Source: Nymphaea colorata
Taxonomy: Eukaryota; Streptophyta; Magnoliopsida; Nymphaeales; Nymphaeaceae
Length of the DNA stretch: 64,000 bases
Reading direction: 5' to 3'
NCBI RefSeq assembly: GCF_008831285.2
Contig: NC_045140.1
Coordinates: 16,242,370-16,306,369, forward strand
Below, piece after piece: positions 10,520 to 64,000 of this stretch. Each line of letters begins with the position of its first letter. The first letter of the stretch is position 1. The notes beneath the pieces were generated by a model, which searched no databases, was not told the origin of the DNA, and was given only the letters and a program-made list of their open reading frames with translations. Position numbers and translations under genes: made by a program.

Positions 10520-13500
10520 GAAGGCATCATGATGGCTCGTGGCTACTGTTTCTCCGTAGAAGATGGAGCTGTATCCGGTTGAGCGTAGACCAGCCTAGAC
10601 GACTAAACATAACAAAATTATGATATTCAGATCTCGGCCACAGCCTCCATGCATAGAAGCACACATGCATGCACGCACGTGTGTGCGTGGGAGGTTGAGA
10701 GAGGGAGAGAAAGACAGCACACCCCAAGCTGAGTCTCCGCATCAATAGAACTAGTAGTCAATTTCATCTTACGTAGGCAAGGCATGACGGGGAGCCAAAA
10801 TTTAATGTCAGCCTGAGCATTTTGCAAGTGGCTTTACGCAGTCCCACCTACAACATCCTATTTCCTCTTGTAAGCACATTAGCAGAGCAAATCCGTGAGG
10901 AATAAACGGCCGACATCTTCCAGAATTGGCTTGCCAATCATCATCGCAATAATTCACTCGACGTCAAGATTCCTGAATTTGGCAGAAGAAATGCGCAGTG
11001 CAGTCCCCAACCACAAGAATTGAATAATTTATGAAATCTGAAGGAAAATAGTTAAAATACCATCAATTTAACAGAGTGTGTGTGCCCCAAGTTCTTAATT
11101 CCACAAGAAGGCAATGCACTGTAACTCACGTAAGGCCTAGTTGTTCCTACCCTTGACCATCTGGAAATGGAAGCCAGCCAAACAGTTGGCTGAAAGTCCA
11201 GCAGTCTGGTTGAAATTTGGTGTGCTTCGTTGCCGAGTATGGTGGATAAAGCATGATCTGGAACCATAACCACTGATATGCACAAAGAAAATTGTTGCCA
11301 GCAAATGCAGCCCAACGATGGACAGAGCAGTGCACACAGGCTGATGCTGTAAAAACAACAAAAGTAATCAGCACCCTTTGAGTTGCGAGGCCTGATCTCA
11401 AGCTTCTAGATGATGACTTGCTTATGGAACCAATAACATGGTTCACGCAATTGAGAATATTCAACCTGGACGAACAAATGACAAGTAACTTACCTGAAAG
11501 TGACAACGAGCGTCTGATACGAGTGTTTGTTGTGGGGGTTCCGAGAATACCACTTCATTCTGCTATGGGCTTCAGTGTGCATACACAGGGTCAACCAGCT
11601 AGTGGTTGAGGAACCTTGCCCGTAGATGGAGAGTAAAAATGAGTTTCGAGGCTCCGGCATTCATGGCTACATCCATTTTGAAGAGTCTGGTAAAGATAAT
11701 CCTCATAATCTTATAAGACTTTGCTACCACCTTAGATTAACAAAACTTTCTACTTATCGTTTCAAGGCGAAAGCATGAATCAGCTAGCAGTAGAACTTAG
11801 AACAAACCATGAGAAGAAGGCCAGCCAAATATCCTCAGATTGAAAGTTACCTTAGATCAGCGATACAGGAGAACCAAAGACATTGAAGCCTTTAAATATG
11901 CAGTTCGACATTGAACATTTTTATTATAAACGTTTTGGCATATCATCTAACTGTCCTTTTAATGCATGCGGTGGTCGCAATTTGTTGTCTTAATCTCTGC
12001 GTTAATTTTGAGGCCAATGTGTTAAATGCAAGTGCACACACATAAAATGTTCAATACAAACCAATCTATGCAGCCTTCAGATATATTGACTTACCTTGGC
12101 GGTATTCCTGTGTTCGAATTAAGAAAACAGAATAATTACTACACCTGGGTCAGCAGAGAATAGGCAGAAAGCAGGGGAGTGAGAACCAATGGTATTCAAA
12201 TTACTTACACCAGTATTCTTAGCATAGGTAACTCCTGGTGAGGTACCTTCAAACACTATTACCGTTTCTGCAGTTCGAAGCTGATCCATGATTTGTTCCA
12301 ACCAATTAATAGTAGGTTATACGTTCACCTCAAACTCAAGAAGAGTATTAAAGGAATGAGTCATACAAACAATACGATTGCAATTTTTTTTTTTCGAAAC
12401 AAAGGATGGGGGCCTCCCACGGCAGGTCTGCAGCGGAATCATACAAACTTTAGAACACTGAGATTTAATGACATAACACGACCATGATATTAATGAAGGG
12501 TATGATAATATGATAATCATGACACAATAATTTGGTCACTCGAACGCATAAGACGACAATAATCTTGAAGAAGGGTAACGCCCCAAATATTCTATCAGCC
12601 ACAAGAAATATATCTGGGGATGGTTTTCCTTGTTTTACTTCTGGATCATCATCAACAACCACATGATACATCATAGAAAAAGTCCCAACTTTCACGAACA
12701 TCTGTTGTCTTTACGTCAAAATGCCAGTCTGTGTGAATTGCAGACCGACAGCTGGGAGTTTATTTTAGACACTGGAAACATTCCCAGTAGTGGAACAAAA
12801 AAAAAAAAAAAACACAGTTGAGATAGTTTTCTAATTTAGCAGGTCAAAAGTAATTTATGCTCACAGACAGGGAGATCATCCATGTAAACGCGTCGGAGAA
12901 CATGAACATATTATGCCAACATATGTAAGTGTACACCTTCAAAGCTAAAACAAGAAAGAAGTTTGTACCTTGTCGTCACACACAGAGAGGCATTCCGTTT
13001 GCATAAAAATGATTGACCAAATGCTTGAATCAGAAGAAAAGCAAATGAAACAAATATTTTGATTTAAGATAAATTGTCATCGGTTGCTGATTTTAGGGGA
13101 TTAGCCATTGCCATTGGCAACTACAAAAGGTTCCAGGAGGAGGTTTGAGAAGCCACATTATTGTACATGCTGAGACAAGTCAGAGGCCGTCTATGCGATT
13201 GTATCAAATGGGAAATGAGGCAACTTCTTGTTCTTTTTCCTTTCTTTGAATAATTTGATATCACATTTGTAGCTCTTCATTTTCCCAGTAAGGGTAAATG
13301 AGCGATCTCAGGTGATAAAACAGAAGACTGGACCATTCAACCACCTCCTGCACCCTGAGTTTTCCCAGGGTGTGTGCTTGTTCTCGGAGGGCACAGTGAT
13401 TGGACTCACTCTTGCTTTTTACTTCTCAAAGAAAAGTTTATTACTTGCTCAGGCACATGGAGAGCTGCTTGTCATTGAAAGGACAAGCACAAGTAATGAA

Positions 13501-15760
13501 TAAGAGATTTAAAGAATACAAATTTATTGGAGACGATAGTAAAAACAATGACCTGCAAGCAAATTACATTCACTACCAAGCAATTATTTAGCAATCAGAA
13601 AGTTTAAAAAGGTAGTTTTCCTTTATGAAATCAGAAAACTAAAGAATTATGTTGAAAAAAAAAAACTAACTTATGGGTTTACCAGGAATTCTATTACAAA
13701 GAGGGAAAGTAAGTGCAAATTTTTTGTTAAATTAGAAAAATATAACATTACTGATGACATTACACTAAATTATAAGTTATTTTTCACAGTATAAAACAAA
13801 ATACTAAATTACAATATTATGATAATAGTACCATTTATGTGATATTTTGAAAAATATCATGATATTTTCCTGATAGCATCATCAGATATATTCTACTGAT
13901 AATACTGTCATATTTCAAAATATTGAAGATGCCATCTATTGCTTCACGCTAACATCTATTAGAATCGTTCTACATAATTAGTTGAGAATCGAGATCAGCG
14001 TTCCCATGCATAAAAGAAAAATGGAAAGTCAATATGGAAAAAAAAAATATAAGGGGAAAGAAAAAGAAAAATAGAAAGCAAGATGCATGCGTGAATGGTG
14101 AAGTTGACATGTCTCAATGGTGAAGAAAAGTCGTCTGTCCTCTCCCCAATTAAATGCTGTAAAGGATGTCTCATGGCACCTTCACCAAAAGCGTTTTCCC
14201 CTGTATGGTTTCTCCATTGTTCCTGACGCAGACGATGCCCGTCTCTTTCCACCCTGCAAGACCTTATGTTACATCGGGGTTTCTCCATTGTTCCTGTCGC
14301 ACACAAAATACCGCCTACTCTATCGTAATACAAATAGTTGTCTTATGTTAGCGGTTAGTGATTTTAAATGCACATGCAGTATGACCTGCACAAAGGCAAA
14401 TTTCTAGTTCAGGATGTGAATCTGATCGAGATTGAGTTCATTGGTGTACACAAAAAAGATTGGTGATTTAATATCGGAGAAGAGAAACGTCATATGAATT
14501 TATGAACAGTTTCCAATTAACAGCGACTATGTCCCATGTCATAAATTGACACTGGTGCAGAAGATTTCACAAGCTTGCATTATATCAAGGCGGTGAGGAG
14601 ATTGAAGAGGAAAATTAAACAAAGAATTTTCTAAACGTTCTAAAATCTGGGTTTTGTTATTCAATTCCACATTTTTCATTCAAAAGAGCTTACGATAGAT
14701 TACGTGCAGTTTCCAGGCTTGCTTTTATCGCCATTCGGCTGCAGAAGGGGAGAGTTAAACAGGGAAAACTCGTTTGCGTTATCTCATGAGAGGTGTTGGT
14801 TTCAGGGAATGTGGTCTATCAAAATTAAAGAATACGCGATCAGGATCCCCATTATTCTCACTTCACGTCTAAAACTGACGGTGTGCAACCGCTGCAACTC
14901 AATCTCCTGCTGCCCCATAGGAAAAAAAATGCACACAAGCTAATGCATATTGTCTTCTTCTCGCTACTCATTAGAAAGAAACAACGATTCAAACGTTGGG
15001 AAAGAGCACGAGATAATGAATGCGGGAAGCAGAGTCTGATCAAAGACATAAAGAGCTCCCACATCTCTGCAACTCAGCCGTGGAAGCTCATCAAGTCAAT
15101 GTTCCAAAAAAAAGTTATAAATGGTTACATTGATCATACTACGGCCAAAACTGATTGAAACATAATTACTCACAAGCAACAGGGCAAATGGCTTCGAAAA
15201 TTTAAGACCTTATACACGCAAATTAGAACTGGATTGACAAACGTAAAGCACCCAGACATAATTTACAAACAAAGTAATTTCATGCAACGCCAATGTAAGA
15301 GCAACGAAGGGAAGCGAAAACCGCGAAGGATAAAGAAATGCCCAGCAGCCCTATCGAAGATCACGTGTGCGATTTCTCGCTTAGTTCTGTCTCCGACGGA
15401 TCATCCGTCCTAGCTCCTGAACGATGTTGCATAGCCGTCAAAGGTTTCACTGGGAAATCCTTTAAAAAATCTTCGTCAAATGAAGCGTCCATTTTCCTCT
15501 CAGATGAGAACCATGGATTTCTATCAAAGGGAATGAAGAAAATTCAAGTACATTTTGGAAAAAATAAATTTTCCCGGAAGAAGGAAAGCAGGAGAAAGGA
15601 ACGAATTTGTATCTCGACCAACAAAATAAGTTCGGCTCCAGGTCGCCAGCGAAAATTTGAAAGACTCCAACAAAATCCCAATCACATCTGACTAATCTCG
15701 AGGGAATACATAACGCGTTAGAATGTATTTAGTATATAAATACTTTTCGACAAACTCCAT
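10520..15760. repeat. Segmental tandem duplication, left unit (carries GPP pseudogene)
   Basis: This block is diverged but collinear with 15880-21400. Matching landmarks include GGCTACTGTTTCTCC at 10540 against GGTTACTGTTCCCC at 15909, intronic text around 13190-13450 against 18520-18880, ATGACCTGCACAAAGG at 14381 against 20046, and promoter text at 15600-15660 against 21330-21390. Introns are shared, so this was a DNA-level duplication and not retroposition. The outer edges are approximate. Confidence 0.8.
11147..15408 (-). pseudogene. Decayed glycerol-3-phosphatase (HAD) gene copy
   Basis: Relics of five of the six exons found in the intact downstream copy are present in order: exon 1 at 15342-15408, exon 3 at 12969-13030, exon 4 at 12583-12737, exon 5 at 12210-12286 and exon 6 at 11147-11277. 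Exon 2, which carries the cap domain start, is not found; AT-rich sequence occupies its place. The start codon has become ACG. The DxD motif of the HAD nucleophile loop (DMDG in the intact copy) is partly deleted. Length changes break the frame in exons 1, 3, 4 and 6. Most splice sites are lost, for example donors GT to GC after exons 1 and 4 and acceptor AG changed before exons 4 and 6. The motif FEDAP has become FEGTS, losing a conserved Asp. No functional product is possible. Confidence 0.92.
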
Positions 15761-16554
15761 TTGATTGTATAGTTTTACGTCCCGAACAAATTGAAAAGTT
15801 CAAATGCTATGGAGTGTTATACAACGGATCACAGTCCATGTTTGTAAATAGCGAAATTTAGTTAGTCTCGGATTTGCTTCAAATGGAAGAAGGAATCACG
15901 GAGGTTCATGGTTACTGTTCCCCATAGAGATAAGTTGAACAGCTGCATTTATAACGAGATAGCCCAGAGCCCAGAGAGCCTCTGGTTCATGGCACATCTT
16001 GGTCAAAGGGTCTTTCATCTAAGATCCCTCTGATATTTATTTTCTTTAAATTGACACACTAGTAATTCATGTCTCTGAGACAGAAAGGGTAACCTCGTGA
16101 AAGCAATAAAGATGATCCATGATGCCGCATACTTCATTAATGTTAACAGCTTTAGACTCCGCTTCCTCACAAAACAAGCCTATAATTGCTCAATCTCAGC
16201 CATGAGCCACAGGGTCATATAGACGAGAAGTGATTGCGAGCAAACATTCAACGCAGGCCTGAGCTTTTCATAAGCGCCTTCTGCACCCCCGCAGGCAGCA
16301 CCTCGATTCCTCTTGTTAAATCCAAGAGGAAGAAAAGGTCCAAGCCTTTCAACAATTCGCATCAGTCAAATTGACACAGGCATGCTGCAGTGTTCGACAA
16401 CAAGATTGACTCATTTGTCAACTGGTAAAAGGAGAAAGTATCTACTTAACAAGAAAATTCCAAAACTTCAGAAGGAGGGCCAAGTTTTCTTGTTCCACAG
16501 AAATGGAAGCGGTCAGTACCCACTCTGTTTAACGTGCATAAGATCTTGTCGTTG
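15409..16554. other. Spacer between the two GPP copies
   Basis: The right part of the left duplication unit (old promoter of the pseudogene, to about 15760) meets the start of the right unit (about 15880), which is 3' flank of the intact GPP gene. No additional gene is seen. Confidence 0.6.
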
Positions 16555-19500
16555 TTATTCTTGACCATCTGGAAATGGGGGTAGGCCCCAATCGCTTGGC
16601 TGAAAATCCAGCAGACTGGTCAGTACTTGGTCGGCTTCATTCTGAAGTCCGATGTCTAAAGCAGGATCTGGAACCATAACCACTGACCTGCAAAAAGAAA
16701 ATGTTGACAGAAATTCCAGATCAATGAGGGACAACATTGGGTAAGAGGCTACAACCTTATGCTGTAAAAGGAACAAAATGATCGACACCCATCACTTGCG
16801 ATGCTTCTCAAGTCTCTAAAATGATGAGCAGCTTATGCATTTATTAACATGGTTGCATAGTCAGCAAAATTCAGCAGTACACTGTGAAAGGAAGCAAGAC
16901 AATGAATGTCCAAGTAACACCTGTTAAAGGTCTTCAGAATCTCACCTCATTTTGATATTCGCTTCAGTCTCTCCACAGGCTAGATCAACCAGCCTGAGGC
17001 TGAGACTTTACCTGACCATACAGATTAAGAGTGTAGATTGGGGTTGCAAATGGACTTGGAATTTGCTTTCTTGACTTAATCTAATTTAATCTCGTCTATG
17101 TATTTAGCTGGTTCATACAGGGCCAGCTTACACACAGATCTGAAAAGATTGGGTGAGATCATTTTCATAGTCTTATACAGCTAATAGCTTTGATTGCATA
17201 TTAGATTAACAAAGTTTTCCACTTCAATTTTTTACTCATAACATGACAGCAGCCATGGGTTTTGAACCTCGAACCCCTTGAATGCGAACTGCAGTACTGT
17301 CCGGTTGTGCTATGCCCCTTGAGGCACAAAGTTTTCCACTTATTCCATTAAGGCAAAAACACTTCTGAGCAAACAGAACATTGTAGCTAGAACTCCTGAG
17401 CTTGCAAAGTGTCCAATCAAATGCCTTGGCTAAAGCTTTCCCAGTGCATCTTCACAGGCAAGAAGCCAATAGAACAGAGGTCAGAAGAAACAACCATGGT
17501 ATTGCAATCTGCAATTCAACATCACATTTTTTCTTCTTGACCTTTTGGCTTGTCAATCAACTGTTTCCCCAATGCTTTTGGGGAAAGTTTACCTACCTGA
17601 CTGGTTTCGCAATGAAAGATAGACAAAAGGAATAATAACTGCATAAAATTTAGCAGAATGTGCAGAATGTATGCCTGTAAGAATAAACCAAATACAAAAG
17701 AACATACATTCCAGCACTCTTAGCAGCAGTGACTCCTACTGGTGCATCTTCAAACACTAGTACAGTCTCTGGAACTGGAGGGTCATCCTGATCCTTGATT
17801 TGTTTCAACCAACCAAAAATCAAATTAGTTATTCACGTCAATTTCAAAAAGAAATACAGAACATCAACTACAAGAAATTCCTAGGTTTCCCATATAATAA
17901 TTTTAATGAAAGGTATGATACCTGAAACCTTTTAGCAGCCACAAGAAATATATCTGGAGATGGTTTTCCATGCGTAATTTCGGGGTCATCCCCAACAACT
18001 ATATGATGCATCATTGCAAAAATTTCACCATGATTGGTTGTCTTCAGGTTGAAGTGTCGCCTGTGTGAACTGCCAAGTGACGGTTGAGAGTTTAAACACA
18101 CTGAAATATTTCAGATGAAGGAAACAAGAAGATACATGAAGAAGCAATTAAAGTAAAGAAATTGATTGTAATCATGGACATAGTGATCATTTATTTACTA
18201 TCCCTACAAAAGCATGAATATATAGTTTCCACATATGAGCTCTCCCACTGAAAACAGAAGAAAAGGAGAATTCTATACCTTGTCGCTACGCACATGGGTA
18301 TACCATTGGCATGAAGATGATTGATCAAATGCTTAGCTCCTAAAAAACAAATAATACTTTGATTCAGGATACATGGTCACTGAATGTTGATTGTGGTGAA
18401 TTCTGTTTTACAGATACAAGAACTTACAAAATTTTACGAAGAACAATACTTGCAGAATCTGCCAGATTATAAGTGGATTAGGAGATCACAATTCTGATAC
18501 ACATAAACACAAGTCAAAGGGCCTCGATGCTGTATCAAATGGGAAATAAGATGGCACGTTGTTGTCTGATCCTTCTTTTCGCAATGCCACTTTTGTAACC
18601 TTTCTAGTAAGTGTAACTATGCGATCTTGAATGGTCAAGTAGCAGGAAAGGCCATCCACCACAGGTGGAAAACAGGTCGTAGGGGGTGTTGGGTTGGGTT
18701 TTGGAAGGGTGGGGTAGTGGGGGAGTGCGCGCATGGGTGGTGTTTTGCGGATACATGGAAACTTGAGTCAAGTCCCACCCTGCACTCTGTGCCTTGAGCT
18801 TTCCCATAATCTTGTCCTCGTAGGTCTTGGCAGTGGGGGCTGACCCATGGTTTACTTCTCAGGAGCCATGCCCATGGTCAAAGAAAAGCACAAGCCATAA
18901 ACCAAGAAATTTCACAGAAAATAAATTTTTTATCCTCAATACTTCAGAAAAAACGAGTTGGCTAAACATAGTTTCGTAGTAAACTGGCACCTACATCTAA
19001 TTACCCTTCACTACAAAACAATGCCTCATCTGGATCCTTTTAGCAATAACAAAGTAATGCCAAACGAATCGGCAATGCAAAATGTGTTCAACCAGAAAGT
19101 TCCAGCACTTGAATAACATTAGAAAATCATCTGCAGGACGAAGGAGGTCACAACATCTACTAGGTTGCTGGGTGAATATCGAGAATTATTTGCCAACTAT
19201 CAAGTGTTTGTGGAGTTCACTTCTGAGGACCCCACACATAGACAAATATGTGCTAATGGAAGATGAAACATGGCCGCTGGCCATGAACAATGGAATGCAG
19301 CATCTCGGACTCAAATAAGCTTAGATTATGCAATATAATTTATTATAGATGCTTTGTGGACAACACAGAAGAAAAAAGGAAAAAGATTACCATATCAACA
19401 TTTATCAAATGTAAAGCACGCATTGACTGGTTACCATATATTTTTCCTTTTCAGAAAGCATGAAATGAAACACAGCCAAACTCCAGGAACATGTGATTTA

Positions 19501-21111
19501 AATTTGATTTTCCTTTGTTGGTGTGGTTTTAGTACCTGGTAGGAACTCACAATCTGGAAACAGGGTAAGCAACATTTCTTCTCTTTCCTTGATAAAATTT
19601 TCAGGTGAAAGAACGCCTTCAAGGCTATACTCATGAATAAGCACCATGGCAGCATCTAAGGCTTTCTTTCCCATCATCTTAGCTTTCACTGACCAGTCAA
19701 AACTTTTGCCATACTTAGATAAGATCTTCTCTTGGACGATGGTATAGAACTTTTCAGTATCTGCGGAACAAGAAATTAAATGCTTGAATTTCAGCCCAAA
19801 AGGATATTAGGTAAAAAAAAAAAAAATTCTCCAACAATAAACAAGCTTTAAACAAGAAACAGGAGGTTGAGAAGCACCTTCAATGATTATCAAATATGTT
19901 GAGCAGAAACTGGAAAATGGGGTTGGCAGTAGTCAACTTTCTGTTGACTAATAAAACCCAAAATCAAGCATTGAATAGTAACAATTCTATGGCGAAATTA
20001 AAAAGTTGCCCTCACGTTTACCCTTCTTGTTGTTAAGGGCCTAAGCGATGACCTGCACAAAGGTAATTTCCTAGATTTTTATGTGAATTTGATCCAAATC
20101 AGTTCATCTGTGATCACAAGATTTTTCATTTACTTTCTTTTGAGACAATTTTCTACTAACGGACCCCAAGGAAATGACAGATACTGACTTTTTGAGACCT
20201 TATGTTATATCAGGGTTTAGCAAAGCGACTACGGAGAAGAAACACAAAAAATTTGAAAAGCATTTGAAAATGCTTGGACTTTTGAAACACGAAAAATTTG
20301 AAGGGCATTTGAAAATGCTTGGACTTTCTCCAATTCTACATACTTTGCCTCCAATAGGGCTTATTAGCAGATTATCTACCACTTCCCCAGATTTGCCTTT
20401 GTTGCCATTCGGCTGGGGAAGAGGAGAGTTGAATAGGGAAAATTTGTTTACATTACCCTTGACTGGTCAGGAATGTAGCTATCGCAAATTACAGAGCCCG
20501 GACTTCAGGGTCCCATTTCACGTCTATAACATACGGGAACTGCAACTCAGTCCCCGACTGCACCACAGACGGGGAAATCCCACAGTCGATCGTATGCTTG
20601 TCCTCTTCTTCCTAGTCGTTATAGTTCAGAAGACAACAAACATTCAAACAATGGGAAGGAGCTCCAAGTAATGAACGTGGGGAGACGAAGCTGATCAAAC
20701 CGATGCAGTCCTCACACTCGTGTTCCACTCAACCACAGAAATCCATCAAGTGGTGTTCCAAAAAATTGTTAAAACGTGCGAATTGGTCGAGCGATGACCC
20801 AAAAGAATTGAGGAGTAAGAACCCAACAAGCAATATGGCGAATCCCTTCTACCCATAGCTTCATTTCTAAGATAAAATCCAACTAATCATCACTCCCTCG
20901 ACCGAATTTTAAGAACTCATCCTCCACATGTAAATCAATTAACAAATATAAAGCACCGGGATACCATTCACGAACAAAGCAATTCAAACGATAAAAGAGG
21001 ATGAAGGAAATCGAAAGACAAAGACAGAGAAATACCAAGCAGAAGACCGTCCATGTCGAAGATCACGTGTGTGATTGCTCGTTTTGTTCTTTTGTCCAAA
21101 AGATCACCCAT
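16555..21111 (-). CDS. GPP2: (DL)-glycerol-3-phosphatase, HAD superfamily
   Basis: Six exons keep frame across GT..AG junctions: 21036-21111, 19536-19760, 18279-18339, 17922-18069, 17708-17793 and 16555-16687, giving 242 aa. HAD motifs are complete. The nucleophile loop is [11 protein letters not shown] (residues about 19-29), the cap begins with KFYT and continues to FLPG, the conserved K lies in GKPSPDIF, and the acidic motif is VLVFEDAP. The C-terminus (VVMVPDP, then [10 protein letters not shown]) matches the plant GPP1/GPP2 (GS1) family, which removes phosphate from glycerol-3-phosphate. The only ATG in frame gives no transit peptide, so the form resembles the shorter, cytosolic AtGPP2. 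Exon 5 has two acceptors six bases apart, so a two-residue difference is possible. A tandem copy at 11147-15408 is dead. An alternative role as another small HAD phosphatase, such as an FMN or sugar-phosphate phosphatase, cannot be excluded by sequence. Confidence 0.93.
17209..17341 (-). mobile_element. Short tRNA-derived SINE with 16-bp target-site duplication
   Basis: A 101-bp insert (17225-17325) is flanked by perfect copies of ACAAAGTTTTCCACTT at 17209-17224 and 17326-17341. Read on the minus strand, it has an A-box-like TAGCACAACCGG and a B-box-like GGTTCGAGGTT about 35 bases apart, then an A-rich 3' end. The corresponding intron position in the duplicated copy (around 11737-11752, AACAAAACTTTCTACTTA) has a single target and no insert, so the insertion followed the gene duplication. 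Confidence 0.85.
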
Positions 21112-22020
21112 TTCGGCTCCTGAACGGTTGTGCAACGCCGTGCGAAATTTCTCCGATGAAACCTGGGAGCGCCTATTTCTCTTTGAAAGCACAGCCAGGG
21201 ATTAAAGAAAAGAAAAAAAACCGGCCACCAAAAAAATCAGAGCATATCCCACAGAAAGATCTCCACAATAATAATTCCCGCCAAAAAAGTCGTTGACGGA
21301 GAATCGACTTACAAGAGAAGCAGATCGAAGGAGCGAATATGTGCTCGACGAAGAACGCGGAATAAGTTCGAGTCCAGGGTCCGAGAATGAATTAATTGTT
21401 CACCAGAATGTTTAATCAGATCTAATTTTTAGTTTTAATTCCAAACGAAGACCTGACAAGTTCCCGATTTAGTTAAATCGACCGTGATTCAGAAAAATAA
21501 TTATTCTTTTTCGAAAAAAGAAACTTATAAAAGAATAAAAAAAAGTATAAAAATAAATAAAAAAATGACGCGCATTCGTTTCGAATAGGCCAATAAAGCT
21601 GATTATGGTGTTAATTATGGATTTTTAAGAAAGAGCGGTTGATATTTTTTGAAGTTATTTAAAAGCGTCCTTTTGCTCGACAACCGTAACGTAACGAAGA
21701 GATCAGAGTTCAGACCTACAATGGGTACGGTGAAAGTTTGCAATTAGAAAGCTGGCTTTGCCCACTGGACCGTTGGACGGACAGTCACGGGTTCGAATTC
21801 TTTGGGCAACAAGGCCTCAACATGCCTGCCAAGGCTTTCAGCACCAAGAGGACGGAACGACAGTCTTTTTCTCGTTGTAGATAAATGGATTTTATATGTT
21901 TGGATGTCCTAACTTAGGAATCGTTCGGCAATGGAAGCAGTTTAAGAATTCACTCCAAAGATCGAGCATCAGTGTTCACTAGTTACTAGTTAGGGTTTAC
22001 AAAACAGAGCAAGATCGAGG
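21112..22020. other. Intergenic between GPP and the MATE 3' repeats
   Basis: 21112-21400 is the GPP promoter, conserved in the pseudogene copy. 21400-21720 is AT-rich. At 21740-21800 a tRNA-like stretch ends in GGTTCGAATTC (21790-21800), a good Pol III B-box, and may be a SINE relic. No coding gene is supported. Confidence 0.5.
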
Positions 22021-22389
22021 ATGGAATTCAGGTATCTCAATGTTTAGTATGCATTTGCATTAAAACGACTTGAAAATCTGTCATAGAAAGTAGACACGAC
22101 GATATGATTTTCGATTCATCTCACACGTAGTTGATGAACATCGAGGATGGTATCTCACTGTTCAGTATGCATTTGCATTAAAACGACTTGAAAATCTGTC
22201 ATAGAAAGTAGACACGATGATATGATTTTGGATTCATCTCGCACGTAGTTGATGAACATCGAGGATGGTATTCAGGTATCTCAATGTTTAGTATGCATTT
22301 GCATTAAAACGATTGAAAATCTGTCACAGAAAGTAGACACGATGATATGATTTTGGATTCATCTCACACGTAATTGATGAACATTGAGC
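22021..22389 (+). repeat. Three tandem repeats of about 120 bp
   Basis: Units at 22021-22146, 22147-22264 and 22265-22389 share long near-identical stretches such as AGTATGCATTTGCATTAAAA and GAAAGTAGACACGATGATAT. Unit 2 lacks a few bases near its start. They lie about 240 bases beyond the MATE stop codon, so they may be in its 3' UTR or flank. No open frame is conserved between units. Confidence 0.95.
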
Positions 22390-49551: not shown

Positions 49552-50752
49552 CGATGTTTTATATATATATATATATAAAAATTATGGCCTTATGGGGGAT
49601 ATTGCTAGGGGGACTCTAAGCCAACAGGCCGAGCCAGCGAAAGAGCTGGGTCGAGCATTGGTCAATTGTTGACTGAAAATGCAAGCATGGCGGCGGCGGC
49701 GGCAGCGGCAAAGGCTTGACCAGGGACTGGATCGAATGGTCAAACCGTTGGGCATTTTAGACGTTGAGAAGCGACGCTTAGTCTTCCTACCATTGACGGT
49801 TCAATAAGAGGTTGACCGGAGCACTCACTAATAATGGGCCTCATTCAGACCAGATTGCACTCAACTTTTTCTCTGGTGGAGATGATCTGGTTCCCACCTC
49901 GGCAGACTTTTTAAGAGCTGATCTTGGGGGCTGCTTTAATCAAAACTCTATGTTTGGTTTAACCATAGACGAATATTTCAATTGCGTGACATAACAGGAA
50001 TATGACATTAAAATGACATGTACTAAGACGTATGTTGACAAGAATTCAATATATTGTGCTTGGGCTTTACTGACAAAATGAGCAACAATTCTGCACGACT
50101 TTTCCATTATTAAAGTACTTAGGCAATGTATGTTTGAATTTTATTACAAATCGAAATGCGGCTATGCACCACGTTGGTGCAGATTAAGGAGAAGGCAATT
50201 GTTTTTTCAGGGCCATTAAGTTGCACTAATCACAGGTGTTGCCGTCATGGGGCCGAAGATGGAGATAATTTCTTCAAGCACAGCACTAACAAAGACAATA
50301 ATCTTTTCATGCACTTGCACTTAGCGCCATTAGTCAGTCAAGTTAATTAATGCTTACCACCACTCTGTGAATGTTCCATGATTAGATTGTGGCACATATT
50401 CCTGAATATTAAGGGCATGTATTAATTAGGGCTGTGGGCTGGGCGTCGGGCCTGGGCCGGAGAAAAGCAGTCCCTGGCCAGGCCCGGGCCTGATAGCCCG
50501 GCCCGGCCCGACTCCCATGCTCCCCAGTCCCCGTGGGCCCCGTCTCCCTCTCCCTCCTTCCTTTCCCCAATCCATCTTCCTCCTTCTCCCCCTCTCCCTC
50601 TTTCTCCTCCTCCCAGCTCCCCCTTTTCCTCTCAGCTCCCTCTTTCTCCTCCTCTCCGCTCCCCCTTCTCCCTCTCCCTCTTTCTCCTCCTCTCCGCTCC
50701 GGCGCTCCCCCTCTCCCTCTTTCTTCTCCTCTCCTGTGAAGGAATTGTGAAG

Positions 50753-51101
50753 ATGGATTTGAAGTCGTCGAAGAAAGCAAAGGGCGTATCCCATCAACCC
50801 CAACATCATCAGCATGGCGGTCGGAAGCCTGAAGCCAACAAGCCCACGAAGAAGAAGCCCCACTAAAACCGATATCCAAGTCAGGAGAGGCCCATACAAC
50901 CAACCCTTCCCTCCAATTGGGACCGCTATGAAGAAGAGGGGGACGAGATGGATGAATATGGTTCAGGAAACCCCTATTCCCAAACTCCCGAGCAAGAAAT
51001 CGTGGTGCCCAAAAGCAAGGGCGCTGACTATTCCTATTTGAACTCTGAGGCCCAATCGCAGCCCCGCGGCGTGCCTTCCTTCCATGAAGTCCTACTTCAA
51101 G
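50753..51101 (+). pseudogene. Captured 5' exon of a conserved plant gene of unknown function
   Basis: The fragment starts with ATG (MDLKSSKKAKG...), has one in-frame stop at codon 38 (TAA 50864-50866), then stays open through SNWDRYEEEGDE, EIVVPKSKGADYSYLNSEAQ and SFHEVLLQ. It ends exactly at a splice-donor-like CAAG/GTTGG. The block SNWDRYEEE ... VVPKSKGADY is the conserved N-terminal signature of a plant protein family whose function I cannot name. The fragment was probably copied together with its exon border into the element. Confidence 0.6.
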
Positions 51102-51194
51102 GTTGGTTGTCGTGTTTGGTCTTGGTTAGTTTCTGCCTTTGAAAGCCGTTTCTGGTTTCTCATTATGCGTTCGCTTCAGATACATTCTGCTAGT

Positions 51195-51523
51195 TTATAT
51201 GTTTGGCCTTGTCGTGGTTCTTACTCTATGCTCTCTGTTCTGTCCTCTCCGCCGGTGGTCGAGACGAGAGAACGTTCATCGTAGGAGTCCAGAGCGACCT
51301 TAAGCCCTCCGCCTTTGCGTCCCACGAGCGCTCGTATCAGTCCTCCCTCAGGAACGTGAAACCCGCAGAGCAAGTGGCGGTAGAGGACGGAGAAGGCATC
51401 GGAATTCTGCATGTGTATGATACGGTTTTTCAGGAGTTCTCTGCGAGGATGACGCCGGAGGAGATGGGGAAGAACCCGGCGGTCCTCAAGGACATTCCGG
51501 ATGGGGTTATGCGGCTGCACACC
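51195..51523 (+). pseudogene. Captured subtilase N-terminus (signal peptide and propeptide)
   Basis: The frame encodes a hydrophobic signal-like LSWFLLYALCSVLS, then the inhibitor-I9 propeptide of subtilisin-like proteases: TFIVGVQSDLKPSAFASHE, GILHVYDTVFQEFSARMTPEE, and IPDGVMRLHT. In real subtilases this is followed by the mature enzyme with its Asp, His and Ser catalytic residues. Here homology stops at about 51523 and runs into the GC-rich element end, giving a stop at 51554-51556. There is no ATG in frame; the codon at the expected start is TTG with a TAG just upstream. It is non-functional as a protease. Confidence 0.85.
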
Positions 51524-51835
51524 CGGGCTGGGCTGGGCCTGATTTTCGATGGATAGGCCCGGCCCAGTACCCGGCAATGGCAAAATGACCCTTAAAGATG
51601 CATTTGATTGACACCCTCAAACACTGGTTTGGAGACAAAATAAGACATGTTCAGCCGAACTCCAAAACTCTAATGGGGTGGCATGCAAATTAACGACTCA
51701 CCTTGAATGTGTTAACGGAGGTAAAAGCATAATGTCACTAAGAGGTCCTTTGATTGATGGCAAGACGACACACGAAATGAAACACACATGTTCTTTTTAG
51801 TCGATTTTCACCAAACGATAAGTTGGATACGATAG

Positions 51836-51899: not shown

Positions 51900-51980
51900 T
51901 GAAATCAGTAACAAAAAAGGAACAAAAACAAACGTCAGACATAACATATCTGAAACAAATGGTAGACAAAAGAAACATAT

Positions 51981-52060
51981 TGTTTTGTTTTGTTTTTAAA
52001 ATCATTAAATGGTAGACAATTGTTTTGTTTTGTTTTTAAAATCATTAAATGGTAGACAAG
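51981..52060 (+). repeat. Two exact 40-bp tandem units
   Basis: Units 51981-52020 and 52021-52060 both read TGTTTTGTTTTGTTTTTAAA plus twenty further bases ending in GGTAGACAAT or GGTAGACAAG. They differ only at the last base. Confidence 0.9.
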
Positions 52061-54177: not shown

Positions 54178-55146
54178 ATGGAGAGAGGCGCCATACCCAA
54201 AGTGGCCGTCTTCCTCACCGCCTTCCTGCTCGTCTGTCTGACCTGCGTCATCGTCTCCCTGAACGAGATGCAGCTCCAGCGAATCATGACCGCCAGCCAT
54301 TTCTCCTTCGCCACCCAGATCTCCATCAACGCCAGCGCAGCCGCCGCCGACGGCTCCTCCCCAGCACCATCTCCGCCACCCCCTGCCTTCCGTCTCCTGA
54401 TCGGAATCCTCACCCTCCCCGACCACTACCAACGCCGCAACATCATCCGCCTCGTCTACGGCTCCCAGAAACCGAAGATCTCCCAAATCGACGTCAAGTT
54501 CGTTTTCTGCAACCTCACCAAGGAAGAGCAGAGGGTGCTGGTGGCGCTGGAGATCATGCGCTTCGATGACATCATCATCCTCAACTGCCAGGAGAACATG
54601 AACAGCGGCAAGACCTTCACCTTCTTCTCGAGTCTGCCGGGCATGCTCGGATCCCCCGCCGGGTCGAGGCCGCCGCCCTACGACTACATCATGAAGGCCG
54701 ACGACGACATATTTTTCCGGCTGAACCGGCTGGAGGAATCCCTCGTGGACAAGCCCCGGGAAGACATGTACTACGGATTTGTCATACCCTGCGACAGTAT
54801 GGACCCTTTCGATAAGTACATGTCCGGCATGGGATACATCTTGTCGTGGGACCTGGTGGAGTTCGTCACCAACTCCAGCTTCGCCCGGAACCACACCGCC
54901 GGACCGGAAGACATGATGACCGGAGAATGGCTGAGTGCCGGCCGCGTCGCCAAGCACCGGTACAACAACAAGCCGGCGATGTACGACTACCCGATCCCGG
55001 TGCCGATAGACTCGTGCTCGCACGATTTCATCCCGGACACCATCGCCGTTCACCGGCTCAAGGACCACGCCAAATGGGTCCGCACCCTCAAATACTTCAA
55101 CTTCACCAACAACCTCAAGCCATCGAAGCTTTACCACATTCCATGA
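54178..55146 (+). CDS. GT31 galactosyltransferase-like protein, copy A
   Basis: A single-exon, GC-rich gene encoding 322 aa. It is a type II Golgi-style protein: a short cytosolic N-terminus, a membrane anchor at about 8-28, a Pro/Ala/Ser-rich stem, then a GT31 catalytic domain from about 70. Seen motifs are FRLLIGILTLP, YQRRNIIRLVYG, DVKFVFCNLT, DDIIILNCQENMNSGKTF, the metal-binding DDD in KADDD (175-177), DMYYGFVIPCDSM, YMSGMGYILSWDLVEF, GPEDMMTGEWL, and IAVHRLK near the end. This matches the small plant GT31 group of Arabidopsis At5g57500 type. Members are annotated as beta-1,3-galactosyltransferases, but acceptor and product are unproven. Several N-glycosylation sites (NAS, NLT, NSS, NHT, NFT) are present. 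It is clearly more diverged from copies B and C than those are from each other. Confidence 0.92.
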   Translation: MERGAIPKVAVFLTAFLLVCLTCVIVSLNEMQLQRIMTASHFSFATQISINASAAAADGSSPAPSPPPPAFRLLIGILTLPDHYQRRNIIRLVYGSQKPKISQIDVKFVFCNLTKEEQRVLVALEIMRFDDIIILNCQENMNSGKTFTFFSSLPGMLGSPAGSRPPPYDYIMKADDDIFFRLNRLEESLVDKPREDMYYGFVIPCDSMDPFDKYMSGMGYILSWDLVEFVTNSSFARNHTAGPEDMMTGEWLSAGRVAKHRYNNKPAMYDYPIPVPIDSCSHDFIPDTIAVHRLKDHAKWVRTLKYFNFTNNLKPSKLYHIP

Positions 55147-58100: not shown

Positions 58101-58170
58101 CAATTAATCATTGGATTAACAAAAGTAACAAGTCAAGCACATGATTGACATATAAGGTACCAACCGGCGT
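55147..58170. other. Intergenic between convergent GT31 genes
   Basis: AT-rich, with a CT array at 56250-56278. A stretch at 55290-55400 has weak A-box and B-box-like words (GGTCCGGTGG, GATTCGAAC), possibly an old SINE. No coding gene is seen. Confidence 0.45.
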
Positions 58171-59148
58171 TTAAGGGATATGGTAAAGTGAAGATGGTTT
58201 GACGTCCTTGGTGTAGTTGAAGTAGGAGAGCACCAGCATCCAGTCCCGGTTGCTCTTCACCCGGTGGACGGCGACGGTGCCGGGAATGAAGTCATGGGAG
58301 CAGGTATGCTCTGGGCCCATAGCGCCGGGGAAGTCATACATAGAAGGCTTGTTGTTGTATCTGTTCTTGGCCACCTTACCAGCTCTGAACCAGTCGCCTA
58401 CCAGCAGGTCCTCATGACCAACCTTGTGGTTCTGGGCGTAGCTGGAGCTCCTGATCCACTCCCCCAGGTCCCATGACAGTACATAGCCCATGCCTGACAT
58501 GTAGCCGGGCTTCAAGGTGTCCACGTTATCGCAGGGAGCCAGGAAGCCGTAGTACAGATCTTCTCTAGCCGCATCTTTTAGGGTCTCCTCCAGGCCGGCC
58601 AGCCGGACAAAGGTATCGTCGTCCACCTTCATCACGTAGTCGTAAGGTGGCGGACGGGTGCCCGGCGGTGATCCGAAAAGGTCCGGCAGGCTCGAGAAGT
58701 AGGTGTAGGTCTTGCCGCTGTTCATGTTCTCCGTGCAGTTGAGGATGATGATGTCGTCGTAGCGCTTGATCTCGAGCGCGATGAACGCGCGGTGCTCCTC
58801 GTTCGTGAGGTTGCAGAAGACGAACTTGACGTCGATGCGGGCGATCTTTGGCGTCTGGAGGCCGTAGACGAGGCGGAGGAGGTTTCGACGCTCGTACTTC
58901 TGGGGCACGGAAAGGATTCCGATGAGAAGGCGGAAGGCAGGTGGCGGTTTGGTTCTGTTGGAGGGGTGCGCCGTCGGTGGGGAGGCTTGAGCGGAGAACT
59001 TGCCGATGACGGCAAGGCCCGCGTTCAGTAAAGCCTGGTGTTCCAGCTGGCTCATGGAACTGAAAGACAGGATCACCACTATGACAATGAGGACGAAGAC
59101 TCCAGCGGCAACCCGCCCTGCAAATATCTTCTTCCTTTGCTTCTCCAT
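58171..59148 (-). CDS. GT31 galactosyltransferase-like protein, copy B
   Basis: A single exon of 325 aa with a membrane anchor at about 12-30 after a basic MEKQRKK N-terminus. The catalytic part begins near residue 72: FRLLIGILSVPQKYERRNLL, DVKFVFCNLTNEE, DDIIILNCTENMNSGKTYTY, DDD in KVDDD (176-178), DLYYGFLAPCDNV, YMSGMGYVLSWDLGEWI, GHEDLLVGDWF, NRYNNKPSMYDFPG and VAVHRVK. It is probably a Golgi enzyme of the same group as copy A, acting on an unknown glycan. It is close to copy C throughout (about four of five residues identical by eye), and the two share their 5' flank. The KV rather than KA before DDD is the main motif difference. Confidence 0.93.
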   Translation of the reverse strand: MEKQRKKIFAGRVAAGVFVLIVIVVILSFSSMSQLEHQALLNAGLAVIGKFSAQASPPTAHPSNRTKPPPAFRLLIGILSVPQKYERRNLLRLVYGLQTPKIARIDVKFVFCNLTNEEHRAFIALEIKRYDDIIILNCTENMNSGKTYTYFSSLPDLFGSPPGTRPPPYDYVMKVDDDTFVRLAGLEETLKDAAREDLYYGFLAPCDNVDTLKPGYMSGMGYVLSWDLGEWIRSSSYAQNHKVGHEDLLVGDWFRAGKVAKNRYNNKPSMYDFPGAMGPEHTCSHDFIPGTVAVHRVKSNRDWMLVLSYFNYTKDVKPSSLYHIP

Positions 59149-60816
59149 TGAGCGGGTGTTGTGAACAGCGAGCTGCTAGCGGACGACCTTAAAAGCATGG
59201 ATGGAGCGAGCGCATCAGTCGCATCCATGGACGAAGTCCGCCGTTGCCGATTTGTCAACTACATGACAAAGTGGCTCTCTTTGGAAGCAAAGGCAGCAAG
59301 GAAGATAACATTAAAGCAGTCACCAACCCTCCATCTTTCGTTGATGGACGGACCGGACCCTCTCCTCACATGCATTGGCTGAAGTCAAAATTGGAACATA
59401 GATTTGGCGAGGCCAGAGTGCAGCTGGCATGGCAGAGTGCTTCCGGCGAAAGGCTACAGGAACATCGACCCAAGAGGTTAACCCAGCTTTTTACTCGTCA
59501 ACTTCAAATTGATGAACAAGCTTGATGTGTTACATGATTGAAAAGAAACGTCATATGTGCATTCATTAACATTGAGACATGGTTTTTCTTTAAGAAAAGT
59601 AGCACGTTTTTAATTGAAAGTGGTAGCAGTAATTGGAGTCTGGCTTCTTCGTCGAACTCTCATATGCGCAATCGATCTTGTGAATAAGACTAAGAGAAGA
59701 TATCTACCTGATTACATGATCTACAACCTCTTTCTGCATGAGCCGACCCACATGATGTTTCACTTGTTAAGGGTATCGGACAAAGTAATGTGTTCAGACT
59801 AAAACACACGACACAACCTCTCATGTTATTGCAGACAGAAGTGAAATGCACTCTAAGCCCATTATTTTTTTAATGCAATCCACAAGTTTGAAAACCTAGG
59901 ATGGAGAATAATCACCAAACCAGCTTCATCGGTCTGGTCATTAGCTTCATCGCGGATCTGTGGTCGAAATTAATTTTCTAGTGCAAAGCAGGAATCATCA
60001 AGGCCACAAGCACAAGGTCCACGTTTTCCAAGGAATCACTTTCGTAAATTGGTCGGTTTCGAAAATATATAATTTTAAATCCATCGTCGTTTCTGGATAA
60101 AAAACTGAATTTTAGCCCACACTATGGGCTTCATTGCTCGCGTAATCAGATCCGATGGTTCTGGTCAAGGAACTCCAGCTTTGCTAAGAAGCCATCCGAC
60201 TATTTTCCCGTCGATGCATGGATAACATTTCCTTCCGACTATTTTCGCCGGTCGACGGAACTCCTTCTCTCCGTTAGACTACCTACATTGGTTGAGAATT
60301 GAATTTTCTTCAACATCTTCATTCTAACTCCATCGTCATGGCACATATTGCGAGATTTTTGCTTGACACTCTTCTATCGATGCATGTTAGGCTTTGGTTC
60401 ACCAATAAGCAATTGAACATTTAGCAAGCAATTGCAATAAGTCCTCAATATTCCTCTCTCTCTCTCTCTCTCTCCGTGTTTTCAATTTTTGAATCGCCAA
60501 TAAGCATCCGCTCATTTGGCCTGTCTTCTTCTTCCTTCTTTTTGTTTTTGCATATCAAAGGCATTCTGATCATTTGAAACCCCGTGCATGCACTAGGTCA
60601 ATGCATATAACAAGCTGGGTCAAGAACCACACTAGTTTGTGGCCACGCTTTTTGAACTCAAGGGAGGCACAAGTGAGAAATTGGATCGAGTTTTCTAGTT
60701 TGAATATGTTTACAGTTTAATAACTATAACAGAATAACTTTTAATCTGACGTTTAGATTGGCAAAAGCAAAATGCATGTTAAGAAAGAGTTAAACACTCA
60801 ATTCACCAACCAGCAG
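59149..60816. other. 5' flank of GT31 copy B and spacer to copy C
   Basis: 59149-59480 and 59560-59945 resemble the flank upstream of copy C (61792-62070 and 62733-63090). 59950-60816 is unrelated AT-rich spacer with a CT array at about 60450-60474. No further gene. Confidence 0.55.
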
Positions 60817-61791
60817 CTAGGGAATATGGTAAAAAGAGGATGGCTTGATGTCCTTGGTGTAGTTGAAGTAGGAGAGCACAAGCAGCCAGTCCCGATTGCG
60901 CTTCACCCGGTGGACGGCGACGGTGCCGGGAATGAAGTCATGGGAGCAGGTGTGGTCTGGGCCAACAGCACCGGGGAAGTCGTACATAGTAGGCTTATTG
61001 TTGTACCGGTTCTTCGCCACCTTACCAGCTCGGAACCAGTCGCCCACCAGCAAGTCCTCTGGACCTACCTGGTGGCTCTTGGCGTAGTTCGAGCTCCTGA
61101 TCCACTTGGCCAGGTCCCACGACAGCACGTAGGCCATCCCTGCCATGTAGTTGGCAGTGAAGGCGTCCATGTTGTCGCAGGGAGCCAGGAAGCCGTAGTA
61201 CATGTCTTCTCTAGCCGCATCTTTCAGCGATTCCTCCAGGCCGGCCAGCCGGACGAATGTATCGTCGTCCGCCTTCATCACGTAGTCGTAAGGCGGCGAA
61301 CGGGTGCCCGGCGTAGGGCCGAAAAGGTGCGGCAGGCTCGAGAAGTAGGTGTAGGTCTTGCCGCCGTCCATGTTCTCCGTGCAGTTGAGGATGATGATGT
61401 CCTCGTAGCGCTTGATCTCGAGCGCGATGAACGCGAGGTGCTCCTCGTTCGTGAGGTTGCAGATGACGAACTTGACGTCGATCTGGGCGATCTTTGGCGT
61501 CTGGAGGCCGTAGACGAGGCGGAGGAGGTTTCGACGCTCGTACTTCTGCGGCAGGGTGAGGATGCCGATCAGAAGGCGGAAGGCGGGGAGCGGTGCGGAG
61601 CAGTTGGATGAGGGTGCCGTCCGTGAGGTTCGAGAGGTGAATCTGTCGATGACGGCAAGGCCAGCGTTCAGTAGAGCCCGGTGTTCCAGCTGGTTCATGG
61701 AACTAAAGGACAGGACGACAACAATGACGATGAAGACGGAGAGTCCCGCGGCAGCCCGCCCTACAGCAATCTTCTTCCCTGGCTTCTCCAT
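60817..61791 (-). CDS. GT31 galactosyltransferase-like protein, copy C
   Basis: A single exon of 324 aa in head-to-tail tandem with copy B. It has the same plan: basic MEKPGKK start, membrane anchor at about 12-30, a short Ser/Thr-rich stem, and a GT31 domain from about residue 70 with FRLLIGILTLPQKYERRNLL, DVKFVICNLTNEE, DIIILNCTENMDGGKTYTY, KADDD (DDD 175-177), DMYYGFLAPCDNM, YMAGMAYVLSWDLAKWI, GPEDLLVGDWF and VAVHRVK. All key motifs are intact, so it is probably active. Compared with copy B it has MDGG for MNSG and MAGMAY for MSGMGY, changes that may affect substrate fit (inference). Confidence 0.93.
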   Translation of the reverse strand: MEKPGKKIAVGRAAAGLSVFIVIVVVLSFSSMNQLEHRALLNAGLAVIDRFTSRTSRTAPSSNCSAPLPAFRLLIGILTLPQKYERRNLLRLVYGLQTPKIAQIDVKFVICNLTNEEHLAFIALEIKRYEDIIILNCTENMDGGKTYTYFSSLPHLFGPTPGTRSPPYDYVMKADDDTFVRLAGLEESLKDAAREDMYYGFLAPCDNMDAFTANYMAGMAYVLSWDLAKWIRSSNYAKSHQVGPEDLLVGDWFRAGKVAKNRYNNKPTMYDFPGAVGPDHTCSHDFIPGTVAVHRVKRNRDWLLVLSYFNYTKDIKPSSFYHIP

Positions 61792-64000
61792 TGAGCGGGT
61801 GTTGTAAACAGCGAGCTGCGAGCGGCCGACGTTAAAAGCATGGATGGAGAGAGCGCGTCAGTCGCATCCGTGGGCCATGGCTGAGGTCCGCCGCTGCCGA
61901 TTAGTCAACTACATGACGAAGTGGCTCTCTTTGAAAGCAAAGCTAGAAGGGAAGATGCACCAACTTCCATGCATTGGCTGAAGTCAAAATTTGGAGATAG
62001 ACTTGGTTTCGTCAAAGTGCAGCTGGCATGGCAGAGTGCTTCCGCCGGAAGGCGAGGGTGACATCGACCAATCCCATCGGTAAGAAGTTACAAGAAATCA
62101 AGCGGCTTCTAACTGAGGGTGCTTGAAACTGCCCGGTATTTGGCACTTGGAATTTTTCTTTTCTGGAATTTTTATTCCATCTTTCATTTCTCCCATATTA
62201 TTTGATTCGTGATACTTTTGTTCTGCTTATAATTAAGAAGTTAATGTGCAAAAAATTTCTTCCGACACCAAAGTTTGGTATTGAAGTTCCATAATGGCAC
62301 TAAAATTCTCAGTATTAAGAACTTTCCATGGAGTTGCTGTTCAAATTCAACTTTCTTGTATTCAAAAGGGCCCCTACAGTCATTTGAAGATAATGGGGAG
62401 AAGATTTTATGGATCCCAATCCCAAATAGTTTTGCTCGTGCTTAGGTCATTGACACCCTTGTGAGATTGTTCTTTTCTCCGACCTGAGCTTTTCAGAAAC
62501 AAAGATTTCCGGCTCACCCAAACATAACTTAAAAGGTCGTCAGCTATAAACACCCCCTCATGCTTTTCAAGTAGTTTATCTATAATACTCTAAGAAAGGA
62601 AAATGTCATAAGCTTCTGGAAAATGTTTCTGGACCGCCCATGAAACTACAAACAATGATTTTCTCCAACCATTATGCATGTGAACTACATACGTAGATTA
62701 TTGAAGACACACAAAACAAAGAGAGCATGATTAACATTGAGAAACTTATCTAACCATGATTTTCTTTTATGGATCAAAGCGGTAGTATTTGGATGGTTTA
62801 ACAGCAGCATCCCGATTTGTCTTGAGAATGTGACTAAGGCAAGTTATCTACCCTACATGCATGATCTACATACTGACATATTTTTTCTGCATGAGCCTAA
62901 CTACGAGATGTTTCTCTTGTTAAGGTACTTAGAAGACAAAAATAATGTGTTCCGCCCAAAACACACGATATGAGATCGAATGCTATTGCGTACTTTGTGA
63001 AATGCATTTTAAGTCAATTATTCTTTTTAACGCAATCCACAAGTATGAAAACCTGGGATTGAGAATAAACACCAAACCGGCTGGTTCGGTCCGCTTATTA
63101 TATAAATTAAACCTCATGAATCTCAAAACGGATTTGTGCCCACAACCATGAATTATATATATATATATAACGAAATCTGAAACCCACTTAATCAGGTCTG
63201 GAATCAGGTATGTGTCATCCAAAACTGCAACAGTAACCTTCCATAGTCTATAGATAAAGAACGTACTTAGTATAAAACTCTTCTTTTGTGTGAAACAAGT
63301 TATGAGCACACCAGAATACGTTTGTTTAAGTGGAAAAGAAGCTTTTTAGAAGCTTAAAAATGGATTATGAAAAAAGTTAAAAGTCTAAATATATATTTTT
63401 CATAAAAATTTTTGAAAAGACCCCAACCCCTCTTCTTTTTTGCTGGCAACTCAATCTCTTGTTTATGTGTATGTGAACATAAGGAATCCAATGGGGTCTA
63501 TCAAACTTGTAGTTACATTTACAAGATCGAAGCTGATTTCATTTAAGATTATGAAGTACTCCAAATATGAGCCGAACGAGTCATGCACTTCCTTCGTCGA
63601 CGAGTTTGCTTCAAGAGAAAAGTCCAAGCGAGAAGAGACCTGTAAATGCACCCCGGAAGAACATGCTCGCAGGTATCTTTTTGGGGTACGTCTTGGTCTG
63701 CTACTCCATAATCGGACGTACGCATGGGCAAACCCTGTTCGGCTCTTGGGCTCCCAGGTTCATGTGGACTTACGTTGAGAAGTATCGACTTGGACACACA
63801 GCAATTGAAAACAATGAAATATTTGATTTGAATATCACTGGAGAAACCACACTCGATTTGATCGCTTCTAAAAGTCTTACAAGCATTTGATAAGAAAATC
63901 CCTTGTTGTAAAACACTTTCATTAAAAAAAACTTGGGAGCTCCGTTTCTTTCGCAGGAACAGCGGCAATATGTCAACAACTGCGTCATATTTTTCGTGGT
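61792..64000. other. 5' flank of GT31 copy C and terminal intergenic sequence
   Basis: 61792-63090 is the upstream flank described with the tandem duplication. From 63100 the sequence is AT-rich with an AT array near 63150-63168. An ATG-started frame at 63567-63890 (+, 107 aa) contains one hydrophobic segment (MLAGIFLGYVLVCYSIIG) but resembles nothing I know. A partial gene running off the window end cannot be excluded. Confidence 0.4.

Follow-up and report, generated by a model that had tools for sequence, protein, structure and literature searches.

Helitrons and MULEs are the classical gene-capturing elements. Gene capture by hAT elements has also been published, in grapevine for Hatvine-6 (PMC2528002), in maize, where the cargo of Pack-TYPE elements often derives from more than one locus (PMC8903248), and in animals, where 208 of 370 Pack-TIRs are hAT elements (PMC8277862). 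For these animal elements, single-copy cargo was explained by gap filling and multicopy cargo by template switching followed by transposition (PMC8277862). The initial annotation of the locus studied here had regarded hAT capture as little documented, which is contradicted by these three papers (PMC2528002, PMC8903248 and PMC8277862).

We analysed a 64,000-nucleotide stretch of Nymphaea colorata DNA (the window; G000:C3:16242370-16306369) against the plant's own genome, which comprises 407,766,735 bases in 783 contigs. The element under study lies on the + strand at window positions 50427-51578, from a TAGGG at 50427 to the point where similarity to its family stops. Very probably it belongs to a non-autonomous hAT family of the gene-capturing (Pack-TYPE) kind and has since decayed. 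Its layout is a GC-rich left arm, a CT tract, a first gene fragment, a 5-bp filler, a second gene fragment and a truncated right motif, with arm, CT tract and motif representing family sequence. The left end (50427-50537, +), consisting of the terminal and subterminal GC-rich family arm that begins with TAGGG, was delimited by family matches at query positions 11-308, by an end-pattern scan and by alignment with the family locus L009, and by eye its tip carries an extra 7 bp relative to its relatives. The adjoining CT-rich tract (50538-50732, +) contains internal repeats and characterises one branch of the family. As it has dozens of matches elsewhere that do not contain the cargo of this copy, we ruled out that it is the leader of the captured gene. 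On the other side, the right subterminal family motif (51524-51578, +), recognised by the L009 alignment and with two mismatches to the motif pattern, has lost its terminal part; the end-pattern scan found no terminal inverted repeat past 51578 and no end pair. Thus, of the hAT-like ends that had been proposed on both sides, the left one is recognisable but the right one is truncated at 51578. With only the left terminus recognisable, no 8-bp duplication is visible in this copy. Reading the 1.15 kb in six frames revealed only the two gene fragments and no transposase. A second copy of the element within the window was ruled out, since only short and weak matches were present.

Several other repeats were observed in the window. 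Next to the element, and near a long TA repeat, lies a perfect 40 bp tandem duplication (51979-52058). Three related stretches (54371-55142, 58159-59470 and 60805-62069), the first inverted with respect to the other two, are 73% and 83% alike. Colinear matches of 66-77% between 11131-15438 and 16539-21141 perhaps reflect an old tandem gene duplication, and at 22011-22388 there is a tandem repeat of about 120 bp per period, with 92-94% similarity.

Donor loci longer than the captured pieces were found for both fragments on other contigs of the same genome. Fragment 1 (50733-51200, +), from the gene with the SNWDRYEEE motif, corresponds to G000:C1:37212895-37213362 on the - strand, with 441 of 468 positions identical in a gapless alignment (94%; E 1.1e-206; K2P 0.060). 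It consists of exon 1, extended by 20 bp ahead of the ATG on one side and by about 99 bp of what is presumably intron 1 on the other. Its coding part (50753-51101, +) starts with the ATG at 50753 and is interrupted at codon 38 by a TAA, in place of a sense codon in the donor; the exon frame at the C1 locus is present without this stop. No Pfam family was matched by either the fragment or its C1 donor. The fragment and the donor differ at 14 codons, ten of them non-synonymous (including the stop) and four synonymous, counted without polarising the changes. The initial annotation had a fragment ending precisely at a donor-like site. This holds for the coding part of fragment 1, which ends at a donor-like AAG^GT near 51101, but not for the captured DNA, which was copied for about 99 bp more, up to 51200. 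Judged from the sequence, these 99 bp presumably represent intron 1 of the donor. As the fragment retains them beyond the exon, the capture involved genomic DNA, and a retrocopy (processed pseudogene) is disfavoured, the splice site itself being presumed from the sequence.

Fragment 2 (51206-51523, +) represents the signal/propeptide region of a subtilase and carries a 12-bp and a 9-bp deletion. The first match, covering 51213-51523, was to G000:C5:25750548-25750867 on the - strand (295/320 with gaps; E 3.1e-130), and the donor region extends a few bases beyond it. After realignment the fragment starts at 51206, with 302 of 318 aligned sites identical (95%; K2P 0.052). Its frame is stop-free over 106 codons (51206-51523) and matches the Pfam family Inhibitor_I9 (PF05922; E 4.3e-08, 34.2 bits against a cut-off of 21.2). 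The C5 donor has an open frame of 815 aa, which starts with GTG as listed and contains an ATG 28 codons later, and it encodes Inhibitor_I9, Peptidase_S8, PA and fn3_6 domains; this subtilase gene appears to be intact. Divergence from the respective donors is similar for the two fragments (0.060 versus 0.052). Between them, neither donor matched the 5-bp filler (51201-51205, +) at the junction, and the roughly 2 bp of shared bases at the junctions are within chance and uninformative on microhomology. Together, the donors on C1 and C5 and the family ends bear out the initial reading of a Pack-type hAT element with fragments of two unrelated host genes, both on the + strand, in the order SNWDRYEEE gene and then subtilase.

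The whole-genome search with the element gave 76 matches, and the best 40 of 247 candidates were scored. Among these best 40, no other element carried the cargo of the focal copy; the remaining matches consisted of the left arm with the CT tract, or of the right motif. Allowing at most two mismatches, the right-motif pattern occurred at 101 places genome-wide (53 and 48 on the two strands), compared to a single place for the reversed control. The motif of the focal copy is one of these 101, some of which, by the spelling of the motif, probably belong to a related subfamily. We fetched 56 family loci, namely 20 of the 101 right-motif places and 36 chosen from the search with the focal element, and both ends were present in 46 of them. 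The 8-bp flanks were identical in 27 of these 46 two-ended loci, of which at least one (L017) has an AT-rich interior, and agreed at seven or more of the eight positions in 37. When left flanks were compared with the right flanks of other loci, 0 of 2,070 pairs agreed at eight of eight and 8 of 2,070 at seven of eight positions, a null that mimicked incompletely the choice of the best end pair per locus made by our script. A perfect duplication was absent in 19 of the 46 loci, nine of which scored six or fewer of eight. For L053 and L063 the low score stems from a wrong choice of ends by the script, as identical 8-bp duplications are visible by eye. Sister copies have TA(A/G)G... ends with an inverted partner, and thus short terminal inverted repeats, which are imperfect in several copies. 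A check for other copies had been suggested at the outset, and many were indeed found with the same kind of ends and 8-bp duplications, the focal copy itself lacking the right terminus.

These family data bear on whether the focal fragments belong to a mobile element at all. They could have arrived in or beside a GC-rich repeat that never moved them, by another kind of repair or duplication such as filler DNA at a double-strand break or a segmental duplication. This would agree with the missing right terminus and duplication of the focal copy and with its right flank, for which the right-flank search found no second copy in the genome and hence no empty site. However, the CT tract and the right motif border the cargo exactly, an arrangement also found in sisters that have 8-bp duplications. 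Moreover, a repair step is also part of the model that we prefer, and the sole difference is whether the focal copy transposed after capture. We therefore consider a repeat that never moved the fragments unlikely, and favour a captured cargo within a hAT element.

At least 150 matches to Dimer_Tnp_hAT were found in the genome, and two of them lie near right-motif places, at L067 (C14) and L068 (C12). L067 encodes hAT-like_RNase-H and Dimer_Tnp_hAT domains (PF14372 and PF05699), is broken by stops and has no clear left tip, while L068 has an RNase-H domain in an open stretch of 472 aa and no recognised left tip. We compared the flanks of L067 with 57 sequences, the 56 loci and the focal copy. 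The left region matched nine of the 57, with 80-86% identity over 112-124 bp in L047, L052, L053, L063 and L064, and did not match the focal copy. The right region matched 30 of the 57, with 78-90% identity among the 14 matches listed. Several cargo-bearing sisters have both of these regions in common with L067, a decayed hAT transposase copy. Three of 96 transposase matches have an uninterrupted frame of 657 aa. Among them is L069, whose right end is related and whose left tip was not located. L070 has a partial variant motif, and no motif was present in the 1.5 kb read at L071. In none of L067-L071 were both tips and a duplication seen together with the transposase. We grade a hAT source for the family as probable, short of a complete transposase element.

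The classical status of Helitrons and MULEs as capturing elements might suggest that one of them had collected these genes. The family, however, has 8-bp duplications and terminal inverted repeats, neither of which is found in Helitrons, and it has hAT transposase domains beside matching ends. Capture by a Helitron or MULE is therefore extremely improbable, and the hAT assignment is retained.

To compare cargo across the family, we clustered 28 elements (20 right-motif loci, L009, L011, L012, L014, L019, L034, L036 and the focal copy), which fell into 13 cargo clusters; L062 was grouped with the PAL-bearing copies via flanking parts only, and L009 and L019 have some cargo in common. The cargo of L060 is an antisense fragment of PAL (PF00221, E 1.4e-12), for which 18 candidate donor matches exist; patatin, considered for the same cargo, fell below the cut-off (E 0.015) and was replaced by PAL. 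L062 carries DUF641 (E 1.5e-20) and L009 carries DUF3475 (E 1.5e-08). The antisense cargo of L066 was identified as V-ATPase subunit D by a solved-structure match (E 3.6e-06), with no Pfam match, and that of L047 and L063, also antisense, as a HAD acid phosphatase via its donor (PF03767, E 5e-26). The cargos of the L048, L011 and L057 groups and of L052, L053, L055 and L056 are unnamed; a resemblance of the L053 cargo to a U11/U12-31K-like gene was considered and not confirmed. The cargo-bearing copies that were examined are short, and no transposase was seen in them.

The antisense orientation of the PAL, V-ATPase D and acid phosphatase cargos, together with the 94-95% identity of the focal fragments to two apparently intact loci, could indicate that the focal fragments were retained for a role, for example as a source of small RNAs regulating the donor genes. 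Both focal fragments, however, are sense to the element, with no hairpin arrangement, and the ten non-synonymous differences among the 14 changed codons of fragment 1, one of them a stop, fit decay. A retained role is thus very unlikely, and we regard the focal fragments as decaying cargo, which would have no protein function.

Two sister cases illustrate how cargo may be acquired. In L062 (G000:C4:1455032-1456486), the two outer parts (1-320 and 851-1132) correspond to PAL-bearing copies, with low-complexity CT sequence accounting for some of the left match. Its middle corresponds to a DUF641 gene on C12 (95-100%, with two internal gaps). This comparison of sequences shows one cargo in place of another between shared flanks, in a direction that is unpolarised. 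L047 (G000:C1:2062931-2064385) and L063 (G000:C4:6603416-6604870) contain the same two-donor chimera, in which a 441-bp piece from C13 replaces 100 bp inside the acid-phosphatase fragment from C1. As their 8-bp flanks differ (that of L063 read by eye), the chimera was formed once and moved as a unit.

Host-gene fragments between family ends with sources elsewhere, the defining trait of Pack-TYPE elements, were found in the focal copy, in L062 and in L047/L063. Copying of cargo by transposition was seen in L047/L063, whereas among the best candidates the focal cargo occurs in one element. Because of this, and because it lacks the right terminus and shows no duplication, the focal copy's own transposition is something that we infer. 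In the model that we propose, a related hAT transposase would have mobilised the family. Cargo would have come in during the repair of a break, or of the gap left by excision, between the arms, with other loci being copied. Repair may have involved template switching, with two templates used in succession in the focal copy; its two serial templates, filler and small deletions would fit this same route. The right terminus would have been lost later, leaving the copy immobile. A more specific idea sees in the family a hAT lineage specialised in collecting genes, with constant GC-rich and CT-rich arms, a cargo slot refilled repeatedly by break repair, and cargos that are swapped and stacked; it is tentative and in our judgement rather doubtful.

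A literature search on Nymphaea colorata and hAT transposons or gene capture found no description of this family among the titles listed, and within that scope it appears to be undescribed; hAT gene capture and multi-locus Pack-TYPE cargo are already published. What the family offers is a Pack-hAT system whose donors can be traced, with a probable source of transposase and, in its exchanged cargo and nested donor, its own evidence on acquisition. Since a single genome contains arms, cargos and donors alike, each copy can serve as a test of the gap-repair model of capture. Hatvine-6 resembles this family in having common ends and a variable interior that matches genic introns and exons, but its copies have a common transposase coding sequence (PMC2528002), whereas the cargo copies here are short and none was seen. 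Maize Pack-hAT elements (PMC8903248) are likewise non-autonomous, have 8-bp duplications and contain coding DNA that was captured. They are set apart, by description, by their Bg/Ac-type ends, whereas GC-rich ends and a CT tract of its own mark the family here. The Pack-TIRs of PMC8277862 were described in animals; the present family is from a plant and contains cargos of both kinds, single-copy and multicopy.
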